This document shows, in pieces, positions 641 to 15,450 of a DNA stretch of 45,710 nt. A program made the translations under genes and the position numbers. The notes below the pieces were generated by a model that saw nothing but the letters and a program-made list of their open reading frames with translations, was not told the DNA's origin and made no database searches. Numbering within the stretch: position 1 is the first letter of the stretch; each line of letters opens with the position of its first letter. The stretch is from a virus, in the IMG/VR virus record IMGVR_UViG_3300023281_001248, positions 1 to 45,710 of that record; one strand, 5' to 3'.

Positions 641-2008
641 CTACGGGCGAGAAACTTGTTGACAGGCCTGATTTGATCTCACGCTCTCAACACCTTTGGC
701 GACAGCCGTCGCTTCATAACAATGCTCACCCGGCGCAAGAAACTGATGCACGTAACTAGACGCAGGCGAAACAACTGTCTCTACCAAGAAATTCTCTGGC
801 ATGGCGTAGATCTTGGTCGCATCGAGATCAGCAATCGGAAGCGGAGCATTATCCTCGTACTGTGTGGGATGCGTCCATGACAGTTGCGCAGAACCTGTCA
901 AACATTCGGCTGGCAGTATCAGCTGCAAAGCATTAACCGTGCCCTCCGGGTCGACACTACAAGGATCGAACTGAGCCTGGTTGTTAAAGATCATGAACTC
1001 AGCAGTGCCATCCAGTGGGTTACGCAACGGAGCGGCAGTATCGTCAACACATATATTGCATTGTGACCCAACGACGACCGGGTTGTTATTCCCAGACGTT
1101 CCACTACGCCAGCGATAGTCGTGAGCGCACAGCTGACCATCAACGAAAAGTGCCAGACCTCTGGACCCAAATGAGAGAGTAGCTGTGTATTCCTGACCGG
1201 CAGCAATGCGACCGAACGGGCACCGCAACAACGACTCATTTTTGCCATCAACTGTATTCACGTCATGCTGAATCCAGGCATGCACGGCGTCACGCCATAA
1301 CCAAATACCGGCATGACCGGGTTCAAGAACACCCTCCGCGTCACGACTCACAAGTCCCTGCCCACCCGTTGTGATCTGGTTCGCAGTAAATCGGACCTGC
1401 CAGCGTCCAGATCCCTGTGCAAGGCCGGACTGACTTGTCTCAACGATCGCACTAGCAACGTCGGCGTTAAACGTACCCGCGATAGTTCGCATCGACGCTT
1501 CGTCTGGTGGCGTGACTGAGTCGACAACAGGTTCGGGTTCAGGCTCTGGTTCAGGCTCTGGCGGCACGACAGGTGGTGGCGTAGAAACACCATCCACAAA
1601 CACGCGGTAGCGACCAGAGAAGAAGTAGTACGTCACGCCAGGGTTTGCTTTGGCTTGTAATTGGCAATTGTACTGGGCGGTATCGAGGCGCTGATGATTC
1701 GAAATTACGGTGCCATCCTCATGAACGCAACGCCAGTCGTAGGACGTGTCCCTGACAGGCTGTGGGATGTCCTGTGCCCATGCCGGTGACGACAGCAGGG
1801 CAATAAAGAGAACCAGCAGAGCCGGAAATATGACGTAACCCCACAAGTCTTTGTGATAATCACTCGTTCGAGTTTTGAGATATTGCATGCCAAACCACCT
1901 TTTGATTTTGTTTGTTATTTTGTAATTGCTGAGTTCAGACCACTCAACCAGTCGGTTCTTCGTTAACTTTTCCAAGCCAACAAGTCGCGCTTTAAGGAAG
2001 GGAATCAT
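641..2008 (-). CDS. Exported or membrane-anchored protein with LamG-like and FN3-like regions
   Basis: The 455-residue product has a positively charged 56-residue N-terminus, a hydrophobic segment at about 57-73 and a plausible signal peptidase site, AWA|Q, at 76-79. Then come a Pro-Glu spacer (about 148-163), a beta-rich stretch resembling a concanavalin/LamG fold (about 170-350, with FVDGQL-type strands), and a C-terminal FN3-like segment (about 370-455). Several Cys residues after the signal suggest disulfides outside the cytoplasm. The start at 2008 overlaps the upstream stop as ATGA. An internal ATG at 1888 has a better ribosome site (AAAGGTGG, 6 nt away) and would give a shorter, more normal leader, so either start is possible. 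As the last gene of the late operon, just after the lysis genes, it may act on the host surface or be a virion appendage. Function unknown. Confidence 0.8.
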   Translation of the reverse strand: MIPFLKARLVGLEKLTKNRLVEWSELSNYKITNKIKRWFGMQYLKTRTSDYHKDLWGYVIFPALLVLFIALLSSPAWAQDIPQPVRDTSYDWRCVHEDGTVISNHQRLDTAQYNCQLQAKANPGVTYYFFSGRYRVFVDGVSTPPPVVPPEPEPEPEPEPVVDSVTPPDEASMRTIAGTFNADVASAIVETSQSGLAQGSGRWQVRFTANQITTGGQGLVSRDAEGVLEPGHAGIWLWRDAVHAWIQHDVNTVDGKNESLLRCPFGRIAAGQEYTATLSFGSRGLALFVDGQLCAHDYRWRSGTSGNNNPVVVGSQCNICVDDTAAPLRNPLDGTAEFMIFNNQAQFDPCSVDPEGTVNALQLILPAECLTGSAQLSWTHPTQYEDNAPLPIADLDATKIYAMPENFLVETVVSPASSYVHQFLAPGEHCYEATAVAKGVESVRSNQACQQVSRP

Positions 2009-2298
2009 TCAGACACCAGGTTGCGTACGTGATCTTCGAGATCGGAAACATCGGTCTGCAAGATTCCGACACGAGTCTCCATACCAATAAGATGGCCGTC
2101 GATCTCCGAGATCCTGGCCGCGTACGATATGCCAGCGTCTGTCTTCAGTTCCTCTTCGAGAACCTGGCGGATCACTTCTTTTGCAGCGGCGTCAGTTCCT
2201 TTTTCGAATACGCCCATGAGCCAACCGCCGATACCAAGAATTACTGCAACAGCGACTGCCGTGATCACGTTCCCAACAATTGGATTACTTTCCGCCAT
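2005..2298 (-). CDS. Small membrane protein with coiled coil
   Basis: The 97-residue protein MAESNPIVGN... has one N-terminal membrane segment (about residues 8-30, Ala/Val/Ile/Gly rich), then a charged helical tail likely to form a coiled coil. The start at 2298 is set by AAAGGAGA 7-8 nt upstream and overlaps the end of the preceding gene by 14 bases; a longer frame to 2397 is Arg-rich and looks non-coding. Its place next to lysis genes makes a holin, antiholin or membrane-accessory role possible, but a single membrane span with a coiled coil is not diagnostic. Confidence 0.75.
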   Translation of the reverse strand: MAESNPIVGNVITAVAVAVILGIGGWLMGVFEKGTDAAAKEVIRQVLEEELKTDAGISYAARISEIDGHLIGMETRVGILQTDVSDLEDHVRNLVSE

Positions 2299-3130
2299 CG
2301 TCGTTCTCCTTTTGTGCGGTGCGCTTCTTCTCGATTGCATTAAGGATTGTTGCACGCTTTGCGGCCCGTTCCTTATCCGCCGCCTCTTGCTCCGCAACCT
2401 GCTTCTTCAAACGCTCGATTTCAGCGTCATCCTTTTTATGCTCCTGAAGTCGTTCTTCTATCAAATTATCGTATTGCGCAAATTTGTCGGCAACCATTTG
2501 CTGCTGCTCGTCAAAGTCTTCCTGCTGAACCTGCGCTAACAGCAATTGATCATACTCAGCTTCAGATATTACGACGCCACTCACTGGTTCCGGTTCTGGC
2601 ACAACAACGACTGCAGGAATCTCCATGCGCCTGGTGCCGCCAAACTCGAATCCAAATGATGCCTTTGCTGCTGTCTCATCGCCTGCAACACCTACAGCAA
2701 ATGTAAGCGCGGTATTGCGTTCGTTATCAATCATGTACGCGTACCCAACAGCGTAGCCAGAAGTACTGTTCAAGCGACTCATGCCAAGCGTCAACCTGGA
2801 GTTTTGGTCTTGAGGTAAGTGAATTTGCATCGCGGCTTCAGCGGCAACGGCGTCACGATATGCTTTTATCCACTTGTTGTGGATATTGAATGTATTGTTT
2901 GTGTTGGTGATCCACTCAGTAGGCACGACACCGTCCTGCCCGTCCTGCCCGTCCTGCCCGTCCTGCCCGTCCTGCCCGTCCTCACCCGGTGGACCCTGCG
3001 GTCCCGGTGGTCCGGCTGGTCCGGCTGGTCCCGGCGCATTACAATGATGCGGGTCGCCTTTGCAGTCATCGTCATTATCCGCTAACGCAATCAGCGGCAA
3101 GAAAAACAGTAGTAATAAAAACTTCTTCAT
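2285..3130 (-). CDS. Exported collagen-like protein with YadA-type membrane-anchor-like region
   Basis: The 281-residue product opens with a clear signal peptide (MKKFLLLLFFLPLIALA|D, cleavage after 17). A collagen-like tract of twelve Gly-X-Y triplets follows at about 32-67, ending in five EDG/QDG-type triplets. Residues about 94-163 run Ala-rich helix, then four alternating amphipathic strands with Gly-Tyr-Ala patterns ending in FGFEF. This resembles the C-terminal beta-barrel anchor of trimeric autotransporter adhesins (YadA family). Unlike those, it continues about 118 residues with a Pro-Glu linker and a long coiled coil. The start at 3130 overlaps the upstream stop as ATGA; upstream in-frame codons would hide the signal peptide. 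A signal peptide is not expected on an ordinary virion fibre. I infer a trimeric outer-membrane protein made late in infection; a virion fibre with a chance signal is the alternative. Confidence 0.8.
   Translation of the reverse strand: MKKFLLLLFFLPLIALADNDDDCKGDPHHCNAPGPAGPAGPPGPQGPPGEDGQDGQDGQDGQDGQDGVVPTEWITNTNNTFNIHNKWIKAYRDAVAAEAAMQIHLPQDQNSRLTLGMSRLNSTSGYAVGYAYMIDNERNTALTFAVGVAGDETAAKASFGFEFGGTRRMEIPAVVVVPEPEPVSGVVISEAEYDQLLLAQVQQEDFDEQQQMVADKFAQYDNLIEERLQEHKKDDAEIERLKKQVAEQEAADKERAAKRATILNAIEKKRTAQKENDDGGK
2932..2985 (-). repeat. 9-bp tandem repeat coding Gly-X-Y triplets
   Basis: Five perfect copies of a 9-bp unit (cgtcctgcc on the plus strand, 2932-2976) and a degenerate sixth code the QDG triplets of the collagen-like tract. 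Perfect identity suggests recent expansion by slippage; copy changes keep the reading frame and would alter stalk length. Confidence 0.9.
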
Positions 3131-3540
3131 AACGCGTACCCCAGTCCTAACAGAACAATCAGCACCTTGTGCCATACGTTGTCCCAAAAATGATCTCGAC
3201 GCTCATCCTCAAGCATCTCCTGTCGGATCTGACCGACTTCCTGCTGCTTCTTCGCTGCAGAAAGAATGTGGTCGTATGCCGCATCAGAATCCCGTGCGAT
3301 GTCCGCATTCAGTTGCGCGATCTCTTTATTGCCTTCGGCAACGTCTTCATAAACATCGATCGCCTGCCAACATTCTGTAGCAGTCCATGGTAACGAACAG
3401 AGACTTGGGTAGTCGACAGGGTCCGTTACTTCTTCGTCCGATCGCGCAGCTTCTTCAAACTCAGGTAGCTGTATCCGTTCTGCTGCGCACGCGCTTACCA
3501 TTAAAGCGAGCAGCAATATCAGCCATGGTTTCGTCTTCAC
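3127..3540 (-). CDS. Lipoprotein with C-terminal membrane segment, spanin-like (u-spanin candidate)
   Basis: From a GTG at 3540 (GGAGAG 5 nt upstream) the 137-residue product starts VKTKPWLILLLALMVSAC, a lipoprotein signal with lipobox V-S-A-C and lipidated Cys18. The middle is helical and charged (about 60-120). The last 15 residues, HKVLIVLLGLGYAL, are hydrophobic. A lipidated N-terminus plus a C-terminal membrane segment is the layout of unimolecular spanins such as T1 gp11. The first 80 bases overlap the 3' end of the i-spanin-like gene in another frame, as in Rz/Rz1 pairs, so it could instead be the o-spanin partner. Either way it should link inner and outer membranes and act in outer-membrane disruption at lysis. 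The longer frame to 3582 would bury the signal. Confidence 0.75.
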   Translation of the reverse strand: MKTKPWLILLLALMVSACAAERIQLPEFEEAARSDEEVTDPVDYPSLCSLPWTATECWQAIDVYEDVAEGNKEIAQLNADIARDSDAAYDHILSAAKKQQEVGQIRQEMLEDERRDHFWDNVWHKVLIVLLGLGYAL

Positions 3541-3805
3541 CGATTCTCTCCAAACTAGCCTCAGATTTCTTACGCACTTCACGCGCCTTTATCTTTTTCA
3601 CCGCGATATTACTCTGCAGCTTCTTGGCTTTTTGAATGTCGACTGCGGTTCCTTTTTGCAGTTCCTTGATCTTGTCTTCATCATGCTGAACCTGGACCTC
3701 CAGTGCGCCAGCACGACGAGCGTTCAAGATCATACCTGCTGCGACAGCTATCGCGCCAGCAATCGCTACCCAGCTGAGTGATTTCAACCAAGTCCAGAGC
3801 CTCAC
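3461..3805 (-). CDS. i-spanin-like (Rz-like) inner-membrane protein
   Basis: The 114-residue product has an N-terminal membrane segment (about residues 10-27, SLSWVAIAGAIAVAAGMIL), then a charged helical region with heptad-like Lys/Glu spacing (about 35-90) and a basic C-terminus. This is the layout of an inner-membrane spanin. It starts at a GTG overlapping the holin candidate's stop as GTGA, so translation is probably coupled. The 80-base overlap with the downstream lipoprotein gene is typical of two-component spanins. Sequence similarity to a named Rz cannot be judged here. Confidence 0.7.
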   Translation of the reverse strand: MRLWTWLKSLSWVAIAGAIAVAAGMILNARRAGALEVQVQHDEDKIKELQKGTAVDIQKAKKLQSNIAVKKIKAREVRKKSEASLERIGEDETMADIAARFNGKRVRSRTDTAT

Positions 3806-3984
3806 TTCGTCAGCACCTTTTCTTTCTTCCAGTACCCTGCAAGTCCAGAGGCCAGAGACACCGTTAGACCGATGTACCCGGCGCTAATCGTTAGATCTGT
3901 AAATTCATTGAGTGTGCCCCAGAACGCTGACATAGCGAGTCCGGCGATCGTTGCTGCAGTGATGGTGCTTGACGGTTTATTCAT
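3802..3984 (-). CDS. Small two-span membrane protein, holin candidate
   Basis: The 60-residue protein MNKPSSTITAATIAG... has two hydrophobic segments (about 8-24 and 36-53) separated by an acidic turn, and ends in a Lys-rich tail (WKKEKVLTK). That fits a small class II holin, which would form the membrane lesion that triggers lysis. The ATG at 3984 overlaps the upstream stop (TAATG) and follows GGGGAGA; the frame extends to 4005 without a good start. It lies between a cell-wall peptidase and spanin-like genes, which is the main support for the role. Confidence 0.65.
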   Translation of the reverse strand: MNKPSSTITAATIAGLAMSAFWGTLNEFTDLTISAGYIGLTVSLASGLAGYWKKEKVLTK

Positions 3985-4418
3985 TAGAGTCTCCCCTTGT
4001 ACCAAAAGTGCGGAAGGTCATCGAAGTTCTGATCATCCAGGATGATCTGATCCTCATTCCAATTACCTCCCCAGGCAAGGTCGTATCCCAATGTTCTGCC
4101 GACACCGATGATCATGCCAGCCATGTAAATAAATCTGCGTGCGTCGTTCCAGTCGATCGGATACGGAACCACATCGACTGCATTCGACTTCCAGTCGGGA
4201 TCTTCCGTGCCGTCAGGCAGCTTTGGTGGATTGTGATCAGACCCACCTGGACCGACTTTGGTGCGTCCCTCTTCAAGCAGCTGTGCCTGCCTGTCCCATG
4301 ACCGAACACCTTCGAGAACCTTGATGTCGTATTCGACGACAACAACCTCTAATGTCTCGATAATCTCGTCGCAACACGTATCGAGTTGAATGCGTGATTG
4401 TCCGCCGAATGCTGGCAT
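3984..4418 (-). CDS. M15-family peptidase, endolysin
   Basis: The 144-residue protein matches the M15 (VanY / L-alanyl-D-glutamate peptidase) fold. Motifs are VRSWDRQAQLLEEGRTK (38-54), GSDHN with zinc ligand His62, AVDVVPYPIDW with ligand Asp82, AWGGNW (115-120) and DDLPHF with probable catalytic Asp134 and ligand His137. It should cut peptide cross-links of peptidoglycan in the periplasm. No signal peptide or wall-binding domain is present, so it would need a holin. The ATG at 4418 lies one base after the upstream stop with GGGAA before it; a TTG at 4439 is a weaker start. The His62-Asp82 spacing is wider than in compact M15 enzymes because of a Pro/Asp-rich loop. Confidence 0.9.
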   Translation of the reverse strand: MPAFGGQSRIQLDTCCDEIIETLEVVVVEYDIKVLEGVRSWDRQAQLLEEGRTKVGPGGSDHNPPKLPDGTEDPDWKSNAVDVVPYPIDWNDARRFIYMAGMIIGVGRTLGYDLAWGGNWNEDQIILDDQNFDDLPHFWYKGRL

Positions 4419-4803: not shown

Positions 4804-7800
4804 TTACAGGTATTCCAGCAATGGTTCCACTTGTGCCGTCAGCGCGTTCCGTTTCTCCAGTAATTTATCTCTAAGCGCCGTCCGTTTTTCTGGCGACAGC
4901 CTGCGGTCTAATGAGACCTGGTTGATCTGTTTGTTCACCTTGCTTACCTCTGTTGCTACACGTCGCAACGTGGGGCGCAACGCAAGGATCTGCGCCTCAT
5001 TATGAGCTAGTCCAAGTGCCCGTTGCCCCTCACCCTCTTCAATATAGGTCTTCAGTGTCCGCGCTATAGCATCGCTCTCACGGACCTGTTCCCACAAGAT
5101 GCGATTGTACTTGGTGGTGTGCGGAACATCGGCCTGTTTGAACCGCTTCAGTACAGGTAGTTCATGCAGTTTCATTGCACCTAGTTCACCAAGCGCACGT
5201 TCTGGTCCATGCAAGATGCTATCCGTCATGACGTTAGCAACAGACATTGTGTACACACCCAAAGCACCGAAGTACCCGCGCATCAGATGTTCGATCCGCT
5301 TCGGCGACTGCATGACATCAGGCATGAAGTCAGGCATTGCATCACCAACCCAACGCGCAAACTCTCCAGTGCGCCAGTCGTATTGACGCTGTGGCAACAT
5401 GTTCTCCATACCAGCGGGAATGATTGGCGTCGACGTGAAGATATTGGTATTGAAGTAGCTTTCAATTGCTGGCTTGGCAAGCTGCGGTATCGGATTAAAA
5501 GCAAAGGTATCGAGAGCGGCATGAAGCATACTTCTACTGAACTCATCCCAGCCATCGATACCCTTGCCTGCGCGCCAGATCCTTTCGGGAATGGTGCTGA
5601 ATAGCACACCGCTTTCGAAAGGTTTCGGTAAGCGCCAGTGTTCGCCCTGAATCCAGAAATGATAGTAGGTATCTCTGTCCCACTCAGGCAGCGCGTTGTA
5701 CCTGTCGTCATCATCATTGGCGATCGCGAGTGAAAGAGATGCAGCGGCGAGCGCACCGCCCTTCATGGCGAAACTCATCGGACTCTCTTTAGCACCGCGC
5801 CACAACTTATTGATGCCCTGTATCCTGGCATTAAGGAACGGCACGATCTGAATCAGGTTTTGTATCGCAACAAAGTCACCACTGCGTGTGAAGTTAAGCA
5901 GATCCTGCGCCTGGTACGCCGCCTCTTCAGGACTTGCAAGACCCTCACTTACTGCCTGCTGTTTTGCGGCCTGCCCTTTAATACCTTGCTGACCTAGCTC
6001 CGCGATACGCCTGTCCCAGACAAGCTTCAAGCTGTTGTAGACACGTACCCTGTTGCTGAACTCCGATGCTGTACCGACACGCTTCCACCACTGAACTATT
6101 TTCCGCGGTGAAATGATGGTGTTCATAAAGCCGTCGATCTCATGCCCAGGAACTTCCATGTCCTTGAGTAGGTCACGAATCTTTTCTGGATTGGTGTCGT
6201 AGAAACCGCCACCACCACGACCAGCATAGGCAAGCGCAAGCATTGCAGGACTGTCGTTGTATGCCTCATGCAGTGACTTTATTGGATCGGCAAGCGAGTG
6301 TAGAGGTGCCTTGCTGACAATGAATGTCTGGACCGTGTCACGCATCCAGTTAGCGAGCATGAATGCCGGGTCCGTAGTAACGCCGATCGTCAACCACTTC
6401 TTACTGGTACGCATGGCAGACATCCACATACCTATGTTCTTGCCTTGCATGCCAACGATAGACTTGAGCAGCAACCTGTCAGTAACACGATAGTAGACAG
6501 GCTTTCCTTTGACCATCAGCGTGACGATGTTCGGACCTTGCGGCGCGACACGATTAAAAAAGGTTAGCCATTTGTCTTGCTCTGCTTTGCTCCAGGTATC
6601 AAAAACAGCAACAGCATCTTCCTCGGTCGCGGCGTTAATCATTCCCGAATGGAACATCATCTTTATAAGGTCAGCTGCCTTGGTGCTTGGAATGCGCTGC
6701 GGTCTGGCTGGTTGTGGCTCCAGCACATATGCACCAGTCTTCAGGGCAGCATCAACAGTTCTGCGATGCGCCTCATTCCTGTAGCTTCTCTCCAGCAGGT
6801 ACGCTGTGTTCATAAACATGGAGTCAACGACATTGCCTTCGAGCTTGGTAGGTGAGCCGTCCTCATCCACTTTACCTGTCAGTCGGAACAGACCCGCGCT
6901 CGATACGTCGGTTCTACTGTTATGACCTGGGGGATGACCGGACTCCAGCCCAGACATCTCACGCCAAAACGGAACGTAGTCATAGCTCTCCCAGATTGCT
7001 CTTTCTTTCGCATCGATCACGCCTGTCTGCACTGCGAGATCCAGGTTGGCTTTATTTACCTTGACCCAGTTGGCCTGCACTTCCTTGAAGATCTCTTCGT
7101 ATGTCGTTCCGTCTTCCGCGGTCTGGTCGCGTGCCCACTGCAGCGTCTGATCCACAAGTTGCTGCTCGATTAGTTTCTCTCTTCTCTTGGAGCCAAGTCG
7201 CCCAGCCTGCAGATCCTTTGCGATCAAAGATCCAGCACGAGTAGCAACCATCCACTTCTCCCAGTTACGAAGCTGACTGTCGCCACCGATCTTTTGCAAC
7301 GGAGTCCAGATTTCCTGGAACGCCTGACCGTCTTTCGGGTTAGTGAAGTTGAGACCTTTAACCTTGGTGCCATCAGCCAGCGTTACAAACGCCTCCTTCA
7401 GTGAAGGTATGCCGTGACGCATTACCGCACCCATGACGTTGTTCATGTTCCTGATGGTACTCATAGCCTTTGATGCACTGACACTGGCGTCGAGTATCGA
7501 GCCGTAGGCCGCTATCTCATTTGTCTTTGTCGCATTAGCACTGTCAATGAGACCCTGCGTTAGCTCGGCAAACGACATGTCATGGAAGATCTGCATCGAC
7601 TTGCGCATACGATCGGGCCATGACATCTCACGGAATGGCGTGTTCATCTTCTTTTCCCATTCCGCATCAAGCTCTGGCGTCATGGGTGAGCTTGCTGAGA
7701 ACATGACCGCATCAAACTCTTTAGCAAGTCCTTCCAAAGCAATACCAACCTCCAGGTTAGTACCTGCATTGCGAAGGTTCCTCAATTGATCGGACTTCAG

Positions 7801-10800
7801 GAAGTCTTCATACTTCTCGCTGTTGCGGTCGATGCCAAGACCCGCTGCTGCTAATGCGCGACGTTCGATACGTCTGCGACTGGCACGAATCAAAGCCATC
7901 ATGTCAGTGTTGCTCAACTCCACACTGAACCCAAGGCTGCGGACCATCTCCTTTACTGTAGCAATGACTTCTTTCATCACTGCGTTACGACTGGTCATGG
8001 TCTCCGACATCTCGGCAATGACCTCATCGAGGAACTGGTCACCACTGACATGACCTTTAGCCTTGACACTTTTCACCAGCCGATTGACAACCTGATCTTC
8101 CTGACTGTCGATGATCTTCTGCAAACGAGCTTTGATATTAGCGAACTTAGGCATGCTACTCATCGCGAAGTGACCAAACATCTCATGCAACATGGTGCGC
8201 TCGGCACCGGCAAGACTGACGGCGCTGTCGGCTACGATGTAAAGAGTATTTTGACTAGGCATGTACACACCACGCACGGTGTGTATTTTGTCACGCTTCA
8301 TGCGTAGCTGGATCGAATTAGGCAGGTCACTATGTGACTGCACAATCCTGATGTTGATCAGCGGCGATAGCCGGTTAATTATCTCAAGCAGATGGAACCG
8401 AACGCGGTCTGCATTTAGCGGCGTCTTTGGTTTCTTTCCTCGATCCTTCGGATCGGTGACCGTGGAGAGCCTGTCGTCTGCTGAGAAGACGGCGTCGTCT
8501 GCGGTTGGAGCGGTAAGCAGTGCGACTGCCCCGTCAGCTGCTGACGCAGGGCGAGCAGGCGCGGCGACCTCGGATGCGTCTCCTGCAAGGTTGTTATCTG
8601 CCGCTGCAGAAATTTGACCTGCTGTTGATTGCCTTGCGGGGGTGGTTTGCGTGGTGGTGTCAGATCCGCCATCTACTGCTCCTGCTGCGGTCTGCTGTAC
8701 GCTCCCGCGAACACCTCCTGGTGCTGCGGCTCCTTCCCCTTCTTGATGCCTGCTAACTGCCGCTTCAAAGGCGCGATCGATCGACTGTCCAAACCAGACT
8801 CTTCCATCCGTTTGATTTGTTGCTCGATTACTTCCTGTGTATTCATCGTAATTTTCCTTACCAAAGACGACCGTGTCGTATTGGAATATTTGGTAGTCTA
8901 CTGCGCCAAGACTCATTAGCTTAACAGCTGCATTGGTCAGGCGCGTTGTCTCTTCCCCAAGTATAACATCCATGCCACGCTTACGAACGTCAGCAACAAA
9001 ATCTGTGTCGTAACGAGCCTTAATCTCCGGTACGAACTGGTATCGCACGCCGATAAACGTCTCTCCTGAACGCGTCCTTGTGATGCTGGCACGAGGATCG
9101 ACAACCATCGTAAACCCGTCGACACCATCAGCGACAAGCGAGTCCAGAATGGGTTGAACAGATTTGATGTCACTCTCATTCTTAAAGTAGACTTCGATTC
9201 CTGGTCTGGCATTCAGGTTGTTTGCAGTAGGACTTAGAACCCGGCTAACAAAAACATCTGTTTGTTTATTTTCCTTACCAATCTGCGCCATCTCCGCTAC
9301 AAATTTATTCACATCGAAGTCTGGCGTGACGGTAGCCTCGACATCAAAGGCGCGCTCGACATCACCTTCGTACTGACCCATGGTTGATGCAGACCGGAAC
9401 GATACGGAGTCACTGTCCGCCTGAAAGAATCGCCTTATCCGTGTCGCAATTTTGTTTTGGAATTTATCGGTTGGCTTGCGTTTCTTTTGAACGCTTATAC
9501 CAGAAAGGAGTCGGCTGAGATCCCGAAGATCCAGCTGTTGTTCAAACGAACCTCCAGCTGCCTCTTCTGTCGACCACTTATTGTCGTTCCACTCCTTCTT
9601 CTCCATGAACCAAGCAACAGCCTGAAGATCCTTTGGCGTCATACCAAGTTCTTCAGCAGCAATATCGAACACATCTTGAGCAAACCCAAACGCACCACCT
9701 ATCCTGACGCCATCAGCACCAACATTACCCCCTACCGCACCTTCTGCCTTGGGTGGTACACGCTTTATCGCGGCAAGACGTTCCATGAATCGTGCCGCCC
9801 AGACATCGATGGTCGCCGCGTCGGAAATACCAATTAAATTACCAGTAAAATTACGAGCCTTTGGTGCCATCCCAGGTCGTACAACCCTCCAGACTCTCGC
9901 CATCGCCTGCATGGTTGAAATCGTATTGGTGCCGTACTTCTTGCCGTTGATCTTCGTGACGGTTGGACCTTTATATTTACTAGGTCTGCCACCCGCATCG
10001 AGATGCTCGATAAACGCCAGCATCTCGGTATCGAACTTACCCTCAGACAACTGACGTGCGGCATCCATTGTCTGCGTAAAGTTCTGCGCAACTGGCGTTT
10101 TAGGACTTGTAGCTCCGAGTAAGTCAGCAATGAGATCCGACGCCCCACCGAACTCAGTGCGAAGTCGCGCAGTAACTGCGGTGTACCATGCGCGTTGGGC
10201 CATGATTTCTTTAGCCCACTTAGCGCCACGCTTCGCCGCCTTCTCGACCTCACGAACCCTTTTAACCATCTCTCTAGCCAGATGTTTCTGGCGGCGAGCC
10301 TTACGCTTCTGGTTCACCTTCTTCGTGGTGTATGCCTTACCGGTTGTTGGATCTTTTTCAAAGGTGTAAGCAATACCTTTGTATTTGATCGAGGTGACAG
10401 TGCCTTTCGCCTTACCCCTTGTGCCGAGGGTCACGCCCGTAGGAACCATCCGCTCCCATCCCTCAGACGGCGCAAACTTCTGCCTGTCGGAGCGAATCAT
10501 ATCTCTCGTGGCTTGCTCCTGACCGGCGGGAACTTTAGCCACCACCCTTTCAATCTGCTTCTTCTCTTCCTTCGTGAACTGGACGCGTTCAGACGTGGCA
10601 CCACGTTTCTTACCGTCCGCCGAGAACCTGGCGCTTTTCGCGTCATCGACTGGGGTGTTCTTTGCGTACTTCCTAGCTGCGCCCTTACCAAAATCCCTTG
10701 CAGAGTGAAAACTCTTGTACTTTCCTCCGGTGGACTGTTCTAGTACACGACCGTCCTCATGCCGAATAAGGTTGTCGTATCGATCCCTGTTGCCAAGCTC

Positions 10801-13800
10801 TCGATGGATGATAAAAATATCTATACGCCCACCGTTGGTATCCCTGACCTCGCCTTTCTTCTGAGCGGAAACTACCGTGTCAGGGCTATCTACTATTTGA
10901 CTCAGCTTTACGCGATTACCTTGTGCGGAGAACAGCACATCTTGTGCCGTACCAAGTGACAGTTCATCATCTACCTGCTTCGGCGACCGAATACCTATGA
11001 CGACCGGAACATCTATCATTGCCACGTACTCAGTTACGCCGGTCTCCTGGTGCTTATCCAGTGCTTTCTGCACGTCCTGTTCGTCAGCAAAGACGATCTC
11101 CCACCCCTTGCGACGAAGACCCATGTAGGCACGAATCTGTTCTGTTGAAACAACGGAATCAGAGACCAGCGTCATGCCACGCTCTAACGCCAGCATATGC
11201 ATCTTCTCGATCAGCTGTTGACCAATACCCTGGTTTTGGAACGACCCCTTGACACTAGCACTTTTGATCTGCAACGCGTTCTCAAGTTCTTCAAGCGGAA
11301 GGTTTACAAACGCTCGCTTGAATGCACCCATGTATGAGATGCGAGTCCCGCTTTCCTCATCCCTAGATATGATGTCGATCGCCTTCTCACTCTCCCCAAT
11401 ATTAAAACTTTGAGCATCACTATCACCAGAGAAGAACGTGTCGCCATCAATCGGCACATCTTCTTCTGGCTCTTTGGAGATCCTTTCGATCCGCTCAGAT
11501 ACGCTCTCGTTGACAGCCTCTACGGGACGCGTCCTGAAGACTGCCGCCACATTGTCGACGTAGTAACCAACGTACCCGGCGTCTTTGATTGCTGTCTCAT
11601 AAAGATTAAAGAACTCGACACCTCTATCCATTCCATCCTTGAGACCGTCTGGATCGTTTCTCATGTCATACAGTTTCGCCGGGTCAACGCTAGACTCCAG
11701 CGCAGCTTGCCCACGCAGACCAGGTTCAGGCTTGTAGCCACCTTCCTCACCAACATTCAAGCCGTAGTAAATTCGGTCCTGATAGGTATCCGGGTTCGAT
11801 CGCTTGCGCTTACCCTCAGCACCACGTATCCCAGTACCGTGGAACTGCGGATCGATTTCCGTAATCTCGCTTTGCTTCGTGAAATGCGTGAGACGAACAC
11901 GTCCGTCTTCGCGAGTCGATGGTGCCGGACTTGCTTCGGCTGAGAAGAACTCGTCAACAACTTCTATTGCAGACGGATGACCGACAAAATCGTACTTAAC
12001 TCCACCCAATTGAAACGCAAACTTATTTTTGCCAGTGGTTTGCGTGTTAGCAAGTTGCTCATCAGTAACCGGGGCGTATACACCCAACTCTATCTGGGCT
12101 TGACGCGCCGCCTTTAGTAGCTTTCTATCACCATCGTTTTCAGCCTTCTGCTCTGCATCTTGCAGTGCCGTATACAAATCAGTTTCGCCGCCTTCACTTT
12201 CACGCTGAGTCTCAGTTAAAAACTCAACCTCATCGTTCAACTCTTTGCTGGCGACAGTATCTAACGCAGTCTGAACCCTGGTATCTAACGGTTCACCTTG
12301 TTCAGCAATTGTCGCATTTTTTGGGCCGCGCAAATTTTCGTTTTCACGACTTGCTTTCTGGATTCGTAAACCGACTGCACGTTTGGTGCCTTTCTTATCT
12401 ACGCCAAGCATGTCAGCGGCACGATCAATCTCTGCTCTTGTGTGTTGCGTAACAGCTTTAACCATCTGCTGATCCGTGCTTGTAAGATCCTCAATTACGA
12501 AACGGGCTGCTGCTTCTTCATCTTTGGTGGCTTTGGCAACGGGTTTCTTAGCTGGTAGCGTTTTGCGATCAACAGCCACAGACAACGCCTTAGTCAGCGC
12601 AGCATCAGCTGCCTTTCGATCTTCAACATTAGGTAACTCCAGACCTCCCGGTGTCTTTTCTGTTGGTAGCTCCTTTTGAGTTTTAATAGCGACCTTGAGA
12701 GCATCCTGCTCTTCAGGCGTCATTAGATCGATGCGCCACTGCTTCTGATTACGGTAAGACTCAAATGCCTCTTCTACTTCTGCTTCCCGCTTCTTTTCGG
12801 TGGTCTTGGCAGCGGGTTTCTTAGCTGCGGCTTTTGGTTTGACTTTTGGTTTAGCTTTAGCTGTCCGCTGTTCGTCCCCTTTCCGATCGGCTTTCTTGCT
12901 CCGCTCTGCACGTCCGACCGGCTGTTGAATATCCTGGCTGCTTTCCCCGCCGACGCTTTCGGTGACAGTCCGTCCTGTCTGAACTTGGTCTTCAGTTTCT
13001 GGAATTGCTTGGGCACTTGGAGCCTCCTGTGTGTCTCGACCTGATACCAGTTCGGCAGCAGCATCCGTTATGCGCGTGACGATCGCCGCCTTGTTACCAG
13101 TTTTCTTTACGCCGAACTCATCGGCCATAACCTTCAGTTGGGCAACCGTCTGCTTTGTGATCTCAAACTCGCCGTCTTCATCTGTAGACAGTGCGGCCCT
13201 AGCATTCAGAAGATCATCAGCAGTCGGCTCGGCAGTCTCTTCATCGAACGCCAGTTCTTCTGGTGTTGGTTCCGGCTCGACATCACCTTCGTCTTCGGGA
13301 CCGGGTTCTGGTTCCGTTACGAGATCGTCTTCTGTGACGACTTCATCATCTGGTCGAGCAGGTGTGGCTGCAGGTCCAGTATCCTCCCCAGTCGGTTTGG
13401 CTTTTCCATCCTTCGCAGGACTCGGTTTTCCAGTATCGGTCGCGGCCTCACCTTCGTCTGGTTCTTGGACCGTGGTTTCATCGACTTCTTCTGCTTCGGC
13501 TTGTGCTGTTCCACTGGCTTCCTCCGGTATGACGTTGACTGCCTGCCCAGCTGCACCTGCACCAGGATCTACAGGTGGCAATTCACCAGGCTCGTCTTCT
13601 TGCGTGGCATCCGCGGCCTCTTGTGCTGGTGGCTTGGTTCTGTCATGCGCCTGACCGAATGCACCACCGGCACCCGGCATGAGGAATCCTGTAATGAATG
13701 CTGCTGGCAAGACGTTGGTCTCATCCTTCATTTTCTGTATTGCCTGCTCTACAGTGATCGTCTCCTGGCCGAGTTGAATCCCGGCTTCGAGCGGACCCTC

Positions 13801-15450
13801 AAGGTATTCAGTCACTGCTTCCTGCAAACCGATAAGGGCGCGAGCCTTAACTCCAGATACCTGCTTATCGAATAGCTTTATAAGTCCACGTAAGCCAACC
13901 GAGTTCAATACACCAGAGCCTGCCGTCATCATCAGGAACGCATTCTCAGCAGTCTCTCTAGCTATATTTTCTGGCACACCCTGCTCGATAAGTGTGTCTA
14001 ACGTCTCTCGATAGGTAGACGAGCCTTCGAGCGCGCCACCAGCCAGACCACCTGCGCCAAGACCGGCAACCGTTGCCGCTTTACCAATTCGAGCCAGCTT
14101 CGCCATCACATCAGGATCGGCTAGGTCGATCGCGCTGTTGCCGATCTTGACAAACCTACTGATGGTGCCATTCGCAGCAGCACCCTGCCCCAACACCTTC
14201 GGAGTAAGACCAGCTACTTGCTTTGCGGCAATGGCAACACGCTCGCCTTCAGCGGCAGAACCTACAGCACCAGCCACAGCACCAGCCGTCTTACCAAGTT
14301 TGTTTAGCATGACCTTACGTACTGCTGCACGCGTCAGTCCAACAGGTGTGATGGTTGCCAGTAGTGACGGCACGATCTGTCCTATCGTGAATGTCAGAAA
14401 GTCCAGATCCAGTAGCAGTTCCGGGTTTTCAAGTATGTTCTGGTCGGACCTGAATGTCTGGGATGCACGCTCCACGAACTTGCGCATTCTGGGCTGGAAG
14501 AATCCTTCGATGTTCTCGCCAAGAGCGGCAACGCTTTCAAGCCCTGTTTCACCACCGAGGTAACGCAGGATCGTGCCCGTGCTTTCGCCCAGCCCCAACC
14601 CACCAGCGGCGAGACCCCGGAACAGGTTCCTGATTGGTTCGAATCCCTCACCCTGCGGCACTTCAGTCTGTTGTTCCGCTCTTTCAGCTAGGGCAATCAG
14701 ATCAGGGCCAGTCGCAAATAACCCTCCACCCTCACCAGAGGCTACGCGTAGTGCGTTCCCTGCTGCTATGGACGGGTCCGCGTCAGGTTGGACCGACCGG
14801 AGCGCAAATTCGTTAGAGGCGCTCTGAGCGGCTCTGGCGGCAAGCGCAGTATCTTGGTTCAGCTTCGCCCTGGCCTGGGCCTGCTCTGGTGTGAATCGCT
14901 GGCCCGTCACCTCACCTATAGGCACCAACGGGAACTCTGATTTCGGTAGCGCGTCGGGCCTTGGCAGGTCAGCACCCGTTTTATCAATAGCTTCCGCGAC
15001 TGCACGCTGGGCCGGACCCACTACAGTCGGTGCGGTCCTGCCATTTGGTGGGGGCTTTAGAAGAGATGCCAAACGCTGACGTGCTGGTGGTTCTTCGTCA
15101 TTAAACACGGCACGGAACGCGTTCTGCTGTTGTTCTCGCTCCTTTGGCGTGCGGCTATCGAATTTAGCAACAGGTTCAGCAGCTGCCTCTGGCGTGGCAA
15201 CAGGTGCCTGCCCAGGTTCAACGCGAATGCCAGCAGCATCTTCTGATAATGCTTGGGCCTGCTCTGCGACAAGGCGACGACCGGCTTCCGGGGTAATCTT
15301 CCCAGTACCCAACCCTTCCCTGAGATTGTTGACGTTTCTGGCAAGGATGGGTAGCTTCTCGGCATCCTCCAGAATTGCTTCAGGATTGAGTGGATCTAAT
15401 GTCCTTCTAGGTGGTCGTCGCAGAGATCCCCGTGTTGGACCGAAAGCCAT
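4804..15450 (-). CDS. Giant large polyvalent protein (LPP), probable ejected virion protein
   Basis: At 3548 residues this is by far the longest gene. Regions seen: disordered N-terminus (1-330); hydrophobic Gly/Ala-rich helices (about 345-600); acidic linker; SAP-like motif (about 765-800, with GVKKTGNKAAIVTRI) and a second SAP-like stretch (about 1002-1030); ADP-ribosyltransferase-like region from about 1189 (LTHFTKQSE... to GYVGYYVDNVAAVF); GNAT-like motif QNQGIGQQL (about 1404-1412); an LPP-typical block near 1755 (WYTAVTARL...LLGATSP); zincin motif HEMFGH (His2422, Glu2423, His2427); LPD38-like C-terminal part (about 3010-3290, with EWDRDTYYHFWIQG and LPKPFESG); terminal coiled coil. Such proteins in other phages are packaged in the capsid and enter the host with DNA; that role is inferred. 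Enzyme activities are predicted from motifs only. The start lies 3 bases after the upstream gene. Confidence 0.88.
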   Translation of the reverse strand: MAFGPTRGSLRRPPRRTLDPLNPEAILEDAEKLPILARNVNNLREGLGTGKITPEAGRRLVAEQAQALSEDAAGIRVEPGQAPVATPEAAAEPVAKFDSRTPKEREQQQNAFRAVFNDEEPPARQRLASLLKPPPNGRTAPTVVGPAQRAVAEAIDKTGADLPRPDALPKSEFPLVPIGEVTGQRFTPEQAQARAKLNQDTALAARAAQSASNEFALRSVQPDADPSIAAGNALRVASGEGGGLFATGPDLIALAERAEQQTEVPQGEGFEPIRNLFRGLAAGGLGLGESTGTILRYLGGETGLESVAALGENIEGFFQPRMRKFVERASQTFRSDQNILENPELLLDLDFLTFTIGQIVPSLLATITPVGLTRAAVRKVMLNKLGKTAGAVAGAVGSAAEGERVAIAAKQVAGLTPKVLGQGAAANGTISRFVKIGNSAIDLADPDVMAKLARIGKAATVAGLGAGGLAGGALEGSSTYRETLDTLIEQGVPENIARETAENAFLMMTAGSGVLNSVGLRGLIKLFDKQVSGVKARALIGLQEAVTEYLEGPLEAGIQLGQETITVEQAIQKMKDETNVLPAAFITGFLMPGAGGAFGQAHDRTKPPAQEAADATQEDEPGELPPVDPGAGAAGQAVNVIPEEASGTAQAEAEEVDETTVQEPDEGEAATDTGKPSPAKDGKAKPTGEDTGPAATPARPDDEVVTEDDLVTEPEPGPEDEGDVEPEPTPEELAFDEETAEPTADDLLNARAALSTDEDGEFEITKQTVAQLKVMADEFGVKKTGNKAAIVTRITDAAAELVSGRDTQEAPSAQAIPETEDQVQTGRTVTESVGGESSQDIQQPVGRAERSKKADRKGDEQRTAKAKPKVKPKAAAKKPAAKTTEKKREAEVEEAFESYRNQKQWRIDLMTPEEQDALKVAIKTQKELPTEKTPGGLELPNVEDRKAADAALTKALSVAVDRKTLPAKKPVAKATKDEEAAARFVIEDLTSTDQQMVKAVTQHTRAEIDRAADMLGVDKKGTKRAVGLRIQKASRENENLRGPKNATIAEQGEPLDTRVQTALDTVASKELNDEVEFLTETQRESEGGETDLYTALQDAEQKAENDGDRKLLKAARQAQIELGVYAPVTDEQLANTQTTGKNKFAFQLGGVKYDFVGHPSAIEVVDEFFSAEASPAPSTREDGRVRLTHFTKQSEITEIDPQFHGTGIRGAEGKRKRSNPDTYQDRIYYGLNVGEEGGYKPEPGLRGQAALESSVDPAKLYDMRNDPDGLKDGMDRGVEFFNLYETAIKDAGYVGYYVDNVAAVFRTRPVEAVNESVSERIERISKEPEEDVPIDGDTFFSGDSDAQSFNIGESEKAIDIISRDEESGTRISYMGAFKRAFVNLPLEELENALQIKSASVKGSFQNQGIGQQLIEKMHMLALERGMTLVSDSVVSTEQIRAYMGLRRKGWEIVFADEQDVQKALDKHQETGVTEYVAMIDVPVVIGIRSPKQVDDELSLGTAQDVLFSAQGNRVKLSQIVDSPDTVVSAQKKGEVRDTNGGRIDIFIIHRELGNRDRYDNLIRHEDGRVLEQSTGGKYKSFHSARDFGKGAARKYAKNTPVDDAKSARFSADGKKRGATSERVQFTKEEKKQIERVVAKVPAGQEQATRDMIRSDRQKFAPSEGWERMVPTGVTLGTRGKAKGTVTSIKYKGIAYTFEKDPTTGKAYTTKKVNQKRKARRQKHLAREMVKRVREVEKAAKRGAKWAKEIMAQRAWYTAVTARLRTEFGGASDLIADLLGATSPKTPVAQNFTQTMDAARQLSEGKFDTEMLAFIEHLDAGGRPSKYKGPTVTKINGKKYGTNTISTMQAMARVWRVVRPGMAPKARNFTGNLIGISDAATIDVWAARFMERLAAIKRVPPKAEGAVGGNVGADGVRIGGAFGFAQDVFDIAAEELGMTPKDLQAVAWFMEKKEWNDNKWSTEEAAGGSFEQQLDLRDLSRLLSGISVQKKRKPTDKFQNKIATRIRRFFQADSDSVSFRSASTMGQYEGDVERAFDVEATVTPDFDVNKFVAEMAQIGKENKQTDVFVSRVLSPTANNLNARPGIEVYFKNESDIKSVQPILDSLVADGVDGFTMVVDPRASITRTRSGETFIGVRYQFVPEIKARYDTDFVADVRKRGMDVILGEETTRLTNAAVKLMSLGAVDYQIFQYDTVVFGKENYDEYTGSNRATNQTDGRVWFGQSIDRAFEAAVSRHQEGEGAAAPGGVRGSVQQTAAGAVDGGSDTTTQTTPARQSTAGQISAAADNNLAGDASEVAAPARPASAADGAVALLTAPTADDAVFSADDRLSTVTDPKDRGKKPKTPLNADRVRFHLLEIINRLSPLINIRIVQSHSDLPNSIQLRMKRDKIHTVRGVYMPSQNTLYIVADSAVSLAGAERTMLHEMFGHFAMSSMPKFANIKARLQKIIDSQEDQVVNRLVKSVKAKGHVSGDQFLDEVIAEMSETMTSRNAVMKEVIATVKEMVRSLGFSVELSNTDMMALIRASRRRIERRALAAAGLGIDRNSEKYEDFLKSDQLRNLRNAGTNLEVGIALEGLAKEFDAVMFSASSPMTPELDAEWEKKMNTPFREMSWPDRMRKSMQIFHDMSFAELTQGLIDSANATKTNEIAAYGSILDASVSASKAMSTIRNMNNVMGAVMRHGIPSLKEAFVTLADGTKVKGLNFTNPKDGQAFQEIWTPLQKIGGDSQLRNWEKWMVATRAGSLIAKDLQAGRLGSKRREKLIEQQLVDQTLQWARDQTAEDGTTYEEIFKEVQANWVKVNKANLDLAVQTGVIDAKERAIWESYDYVPFWREMSGLESGHPPGHNSRTDVSSAGLFRLTGKVDEDGSPTKLEGNVVDSMFMNTAYLLERSYRNEAHRRTVDAALKTGAYVLEPQPARPQRIPSTKAADLIKMMFHSGMINAATEEDAVAVFDTWSKAEQDKWLTFFNRVAPQGPNIVTLMVKGKPVYYRVTDRLLLKSIVGMQGKNIGMWMSAMRTSKKWLTIGVTTDPAFMLANWMRDTVQTFIVSKAPLHSLADPIKSLHEAYNDSPAMLALAYAGRGGGGFYDTNPEKIRDLLKDMEVPGHEIDGFMNTIISPRKIVQWWKRVGTASEFSNRVRVYNSLKLVWDRRIAELGQQGIKGQAAKQQAVSEGLASPEEAAYQAQDLLNFTRSGDFVAIQNLIQIVPFLNARIQGINKLWRGAKESPMSFAMKGGALAAASLSLAIANDDDDRYNALPEWDRDTYYHFWIQGEHWRLPKPFESGVLFSTIPERIWRAGKGIDGWDEFSRSMLHAALDTFAFNPIPQLAKPAIESYFNTNIFTSTPIIPAGMENMLPQRQYDWRTGEFARWVGDAMPDFMPDVMQSPKRIEHLMRGYFGALGVYTMSVANVMTDSILHGPERALGELGAMKLHELPVLKRFKQADVPHTTKYNRILWEQVRESDAIARTLKTYIEEGEGQRALGLAHNEAQILALRPTLRRVATEVSKVNKQINQVSLDRRLSPEKRTALRDKLLEKRNALTAQVEPLLEYL

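Follow-up and report, generated by a model that had tools for sequence, protein, structure and literature searches.

Where does a phage protein act that starts with an export leader, carries a collagen tract and an autotransporter-type anchor, and is encoded among lysis genes? The usual annotation of phage collagen tracts is a virion fibre or tail component, and an earlier note on this DNA had proposed a host outer-membrane protein instead. We followed up that proposal in a 45,710-nt viral sequence (IMG/VR record IMGVR_UViG_3300023281_001248; the whole stretch is called the window here). Here late phage proteins that would remake the surface of the infected cell can be studied on a concrete example. 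The locus also presents an autotransporter barrel with a predicted extension into the periplasm and an inner-membrane gene paired with it, so that what phage-encoded autotransporters do can be put to the test.

Domain order and anchor fold of the collagen protein

The gene (2285..3130, minus strand, as are all features given below) runs from an ATG at 3130 to a stop codon at 2285-2287 and encodes 281 aa, in agreement with the reading frame first called for it. Pfam, AlphaFold and fold comparison describe a collagen-stalk protein with a YadA-type anchor and a helical tail, predicted to be periplasmic. Read by eye, residues 1-18 (3077..3130) form a hydrophobic, signal-peptide-like leader ending in ALA, with putative cleavage before the following D. 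A Cys-His-Cys tip motif, CKGDPHHC (residues 23-30, 3041..3064, with cysteines at 23 and 30), precedes the twelve Gly-X-Y triplets that the earlier note had counted and that we count again at residues 34-69 (2924..3031), where Pfam Collagen scores just above its cut-off (27.3 versus 27.2 bits). Then come a pore helix and four-strand anchor (residues 71-163, 2642..2920) and, after the sequence GFEFG, a tail of 117 residues comprising a Pro-rich linker and a long charged helix (residues 165-281, 2288..2638). The protein has no lipobox, and no known adhesin head domain was found in it with Pfam; its tip measures only about 15 residues.

The anchor assignment draws on both profile and fold evidence. 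The whole protein scores 22.5 bits against Pfam YadA_anchor (E 1.2e-4; cut-off 22.7), and the isolated 95-residue anchor region exceeds the cut-off at 25.8 bits (E 1.1e-5); all 12 members of alignment A3 match the same model at E<=1. An AlphaFold monomer model built from 12 input sequences (mean pLDDT 69) has a helix at 71-100 and strands at 111-120, 123-135, 140-149 and 152-161, that is, the helix and four strands of a YadA-type anchor, where a prediction lacking a barrel would have counted against the outer-membrane reading. At E<=0.001, Foldseek against the PDB matched four entries and no more, each a Hia or AtaA anchor (E 2.7e-5 to 7e-4). VIA-align added YadA (2lme; 1.8 A over 91 residues, Z 9.4) and placed the trimeric-autotransporter anchors at Z 8.5-9.7, with the next, unrelated row at 6.5. 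A viral structure library gave 17 matches at E<=0.001, several of them named phage YadA-like anchors or agglutinating adhesins. The anchor alignment found no match in the PDB by hmmsearch, whereas fold comparison did. Thus, the likeness to a trimeric autotransporter barrel that had been suspected is confirmed at the level of the predicted structure: the anchor of the window protein has the YadA-type, trimeric-autotransporter fold.

Relatives in phage contigs

Scans of viral contigs and bacterial genomes, with repeat fetches and near-identical contigs dropped (L002, L006, L014, L015, L018-L022, L024, L025, L029-L032, L034-L036, L043 and L044), yielded 22 further distinct relatives, for a family of 23 with the window. 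All relatives come from uncultivated phage contigs and one MAG contig. A tblastn search with the whole protein and the anchor regions of two members found no credible match among 50,697 phage records. The MAG contig is read as viral because a small-terminase-subunit-like gene, recognised by eye, adjoins its collagen gene. A bacterial origin was considered and rejected, since a search of 136 genomes from the MAG's order found a homologue in that MAG alone.

The predicted surface part of the protein is kept across the family. A leader with a small-x-small cleavage site is seen by eye in 23/23 members, in line with the exported start proposed for the window protein; the Cys pair precedes the collagen tract in every member, with a His between the cysteines and a spacing of 10 in 17 members and of 7 in six; the tract itself has 12-23 triplets; and all 23 carry the anchor. 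Gene contexts, named partly by eye, differ: some loci are lysis cassettes, others have small-terminase-like genes next to the collagen gene, and in others again it sits between large terminase and portal. Two members in a terminase context (L001, L010) cluster with three in a lysis context (L004, L005, L033) at tree support 97/91, suggesting movement of the module between phages. In L007 and L016 the anchor region is 86 rather than 95 residues long; seven of the missing residues, roughly one heptad, fall in the pore helix.

The helical tail and its downstream partner

What distinguishes members from one another is the segment after the barrel. It measures 84-138 residues in 17/23 members, the window protein included, and 0-38 in the other six; the anchor stands at the extreme C terminus in two (L040, L041). 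For the window protein the earlier note had described a 118-residue coiled-coil tail. A long charged helix is indeed predicted (helices 190-200 and 203-279 in the AlphaFold model), but the length is 117 residues and the coiled coil fails a simple heptad test against shuffled sequences. At p<0.05 that test is passed by one of 17 tails, which is not the window's, so the label is not confirmed. The same note had called a coiled-coil segment after the barrel an abnormal order, and isolate phages agree: in 12/12 anchors checked (11 of 83 matched phage records plus the query record, phiEco32 itself) the protein stops at the barrel, with no partner gene of the kind described below next to it by eye. 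A resemblance of the tail to SadB (4c47, E 0.64) was rejected as chance similarity of charged helices. Four tail-less members (L007, L037, L038, L039) finish in a short segment with two extra cysteines, perhaps a disulfide loop.

In the window, the stop of the collagen gene is overlapped by a gene for a 97-aa protein (2005..2298) with an N-terminal transmembrane segment and a coiled-coil-like helix; it has no lipobox, no relevant Pfam match and no NCBIfam match, and its structure model was poor (pLDDT 55.6) and was set aside as unusable. Partners were scored by a rule defined after the cases had been seen, and hence not blind: 80-115 aa, a hydrophobic N-terminal segment with none later, and a start -60 to +10 nt from the collagen stop. 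In the window, the automatic call began the partner further upstream than the ATG at 2298. By this rule a partner lies directly downstream in 17/17 tailed and 0/6 tail-less members, and 2/238 other crude genes at the same loci qualify. Fisher's test on 17/17 versus 0/6 gives 1e-5, a value to be read with the relatedness of the members, which are not independent. On a tree in which many forks are weakly supported, the tail label changes three times, and L016, tailed and with a partner, nests among tail-less members. Lysis cassettes often contain small transmembrane-helix proteins, and this could account for some of the association between tail and partner.

The partners form several barely similar subfamilies; those of L026 and L042 are missed by profile A4, and their identification relies on position and architecture instead of homology. 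The heptad test is passed by 13/17 partners. In 14/17 the N-terminal flank of the membrane segment is more positive than the C-terminal one (one neutral, two opposed), which fits an N-in, C-periplasmic orientation. A YadA-type chain terminates on the periplasmic face of the membrane, and the tail should therefore lie in the periplasm as well. The suggestion that the post-barrel segment faces the periplasm gains from the co-occurrence of the tail with a neighbouring gene whose product is predicted to sit in the inner membrane. Judged from sequence, the tail probably docks on this partner, and co-occurrence gives the resulting putative trans-envelope tether good support. Searches of an open-licence library found no paper describing the pairing.

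Lysis cassette and neighbouring genes

The location in a lysis region that had been claimed for the gene is upheld by an endolysin in the same cassette (3984..4418; phrog_465, E 4.9e-24). Between the endolysin and the collagen gene lie a holin-like membrane protein of 60 aa (3802..3984; recognised by eye, no family match), an Rz-like inner-membrane spanin candidate (3461..3805; weak PHROG match, E 0.012) and a gene resembling unimolecular spanins, with a lipobox and a C-terminal hydrophobic segment (3127..3531; exact start unsure; no Pfam or NCBIfam match). The stop of this u-spanin-like gene overlaps the collagen ATG by 4 nt. Such an overlap recurs in 8/23 loci (the window, L004, L005, L011, L023, L027, L028 and L033), measuring 4 nt in all except L023, where it is 1 nt. 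A u-spanin-like homologue also occurs elsewhere in the L026 record. On the other side of the partner, an exported protein with a C-terminal region that looks Fn3-like by eye (641..2008) has counterparts near the collagen gene in 11/23 loci, the window among them, all tailed; flank lengths vary by locus. Beyond the endolysin, 4804-15450 encodes a 3548-aa large polyvalent-type protein with LPD38 and DUF7178 domains.

Proposed role and alternatives

The anchor fold, the leader and anchor in 23/23 members and the co-occurrence of tail and partner favour a host outer-membrane protein over a virion fibre, as had been proposed, and we regard the outer-membrane reading as supported by fold and conservation. 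We suggest that a phage gene expressed late yields a Sec-exported protein that would form a trimeric YadA-type barrel in the outer membrane of the host and display a short collagen rod, capped by the Cys-His-Cys tip, on the infected cell. The C-terminal tail would remain in the periplasm and dock on the small inner-membrane protein of the next gene through its coiled-coil-like helix, so that tail and partner would together make a trans-envelope tether. The most likely purpose would be to remodel the infected-cell surface before and during lysis, foremost to keep further phages from adsorbing, or progeny from adsorbing to debris; nothing in this analysis points to superinfection exclusion in particular. 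We give the proposal as a whole, with rod display, tether and surface remodelling together, about even odds. A bolder version, which we hold tentatively and rate below it, is a new trans-envelope complex in which a tailed autotransporter is locked to the inner-membrane helix of the next gene with its collagen rod outside, joining the two membranes and the cell surface while lysis proceeds, and acting either as a beta-barrel spanin or as the holder of a superinfection-blocking rod.

The same pairing across the envelope could serve lysis itself: barrel tail and inner-membrane partner would form a spanin-like bridge that helps to disrupt the outer membrane after the endolysin has cut the wall. 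The position in the lysis cassette and the 4-nt overlap with a spanin-like gene fit this, and the u-spanin-like family gives no match at E<=0.01 in seven records (L016, L001, L003, L010, L012, L013, L017), although the absence of one spanin family is not the absence of all spanins. The window, however, is already supplied with a u-spanin-like gene and an Rz-like candidate, and tip, rod and barrel are kept in tail-less members, which makes the surface part the conserved core; a lysis accessory seems unlikely to us, though it is the strongest of the competing accounts. Trimeric autotransporter anchors usually carry adhesins, and the annotation of the phiEco32 and Salmonella phage relatives as 'agglutinating adhesin' invites the idea that infected cells or debris stick to neighbours or surfaces and bring new hosts near the progeny. 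With so short a tip in place of a known head domain, and with the expected late timing leaving little time for action, adhesion is somewhat less probable still.

Least probable by a clear step is the virion fibre or tail component. In its favour, PHROG collagen matches mostly bear the name tail fibre, tail-protein annotations occur among the isolate relatives, and the proteome of cyanophage S-SZBM1 is reported to contain a YadA-domain protein (PMC9146016). The leader that a virion fibre would lack is present by eye and kept throughout the family, together with a membrane-anchor fold, and Switt 2013 (PMC3728262) places Salmonella phage YadA genes away from tail genes. The PHROG 'tail fiber' names were rejected as a guide to function, since the matches rest mainly on the collagen tract.

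Comparison with known anchors and spanins

Collagen proteins with a YadA anchor are already known in phages, for example gp119 of phiEco32, and phage YadA homologues are described in Switt 2013 (PMC3728262). The 265-aa gp119, named 'agglutinating adhesin', likewise combines a collagen tract (22 triplets) with a C-terminal YadA anchor, and resembles the window protein also in a start that looks exported and in its Cys pair; similar proteins carry 41 triplets in Salmonella phage FSL SP-076, 17 in Erwinia phage RF1, 43 in Citrobacter phage Tr1 and 26 in Salmonella phage PHA46. All five end at the last barrel strand, lacking a periplasmic tail, with no transmembrane-helix partner directly downstream, and the neighbours shown do not form a lysis cassette. 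What is new here is the predicted periplasmic tail with its co-occurring partner, and the position in a lysis cassette. The lytic E. coli phage phiEco32 bears the tail-less form and is usable at once.

The bacterial trimeric autotransporter adhesins YadA, Hia and AtaA share the anchor fold, while the window protein differs from them in its post-barrel tail, its 12-triplet collagen rod and the lack of a known adhesin head. The nearest two-part anchors are SadA/SadB and AtaA/TpgA, in each of which a helper in the envelope accompanies a trimeric autotransporter of the outer membrane (PMC3953254, PMC13082670). In the window, by contrast, the predicted periplasmic tail belongs to the autotransporter itself; its putative helper, a small helix anchored by a transmembrane segment, has neither lipobox nor named domain, unlike the inner-membrane lipoprotein or peptidoglycan-binding protein of the SadB/TpgA type. 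Phage spanins (Rz/Rz1 and u-spanins) are like the predicted pair in their lysis-cassette position and in an inner-membrane helix facing an outer-membrane partner; the outer-membrane anchor in the window is instead a predicted beta-barrel with a surface rod attached, and the collagen protein, having no lipobox, is not the outer-membrane lipoprotein that an o-spanin is. EibA, for its part, is located on a prophage. Where YadA-anchor proteins of phages carry tail or tail-fibre annotations, as several do, the names are probably wrong.
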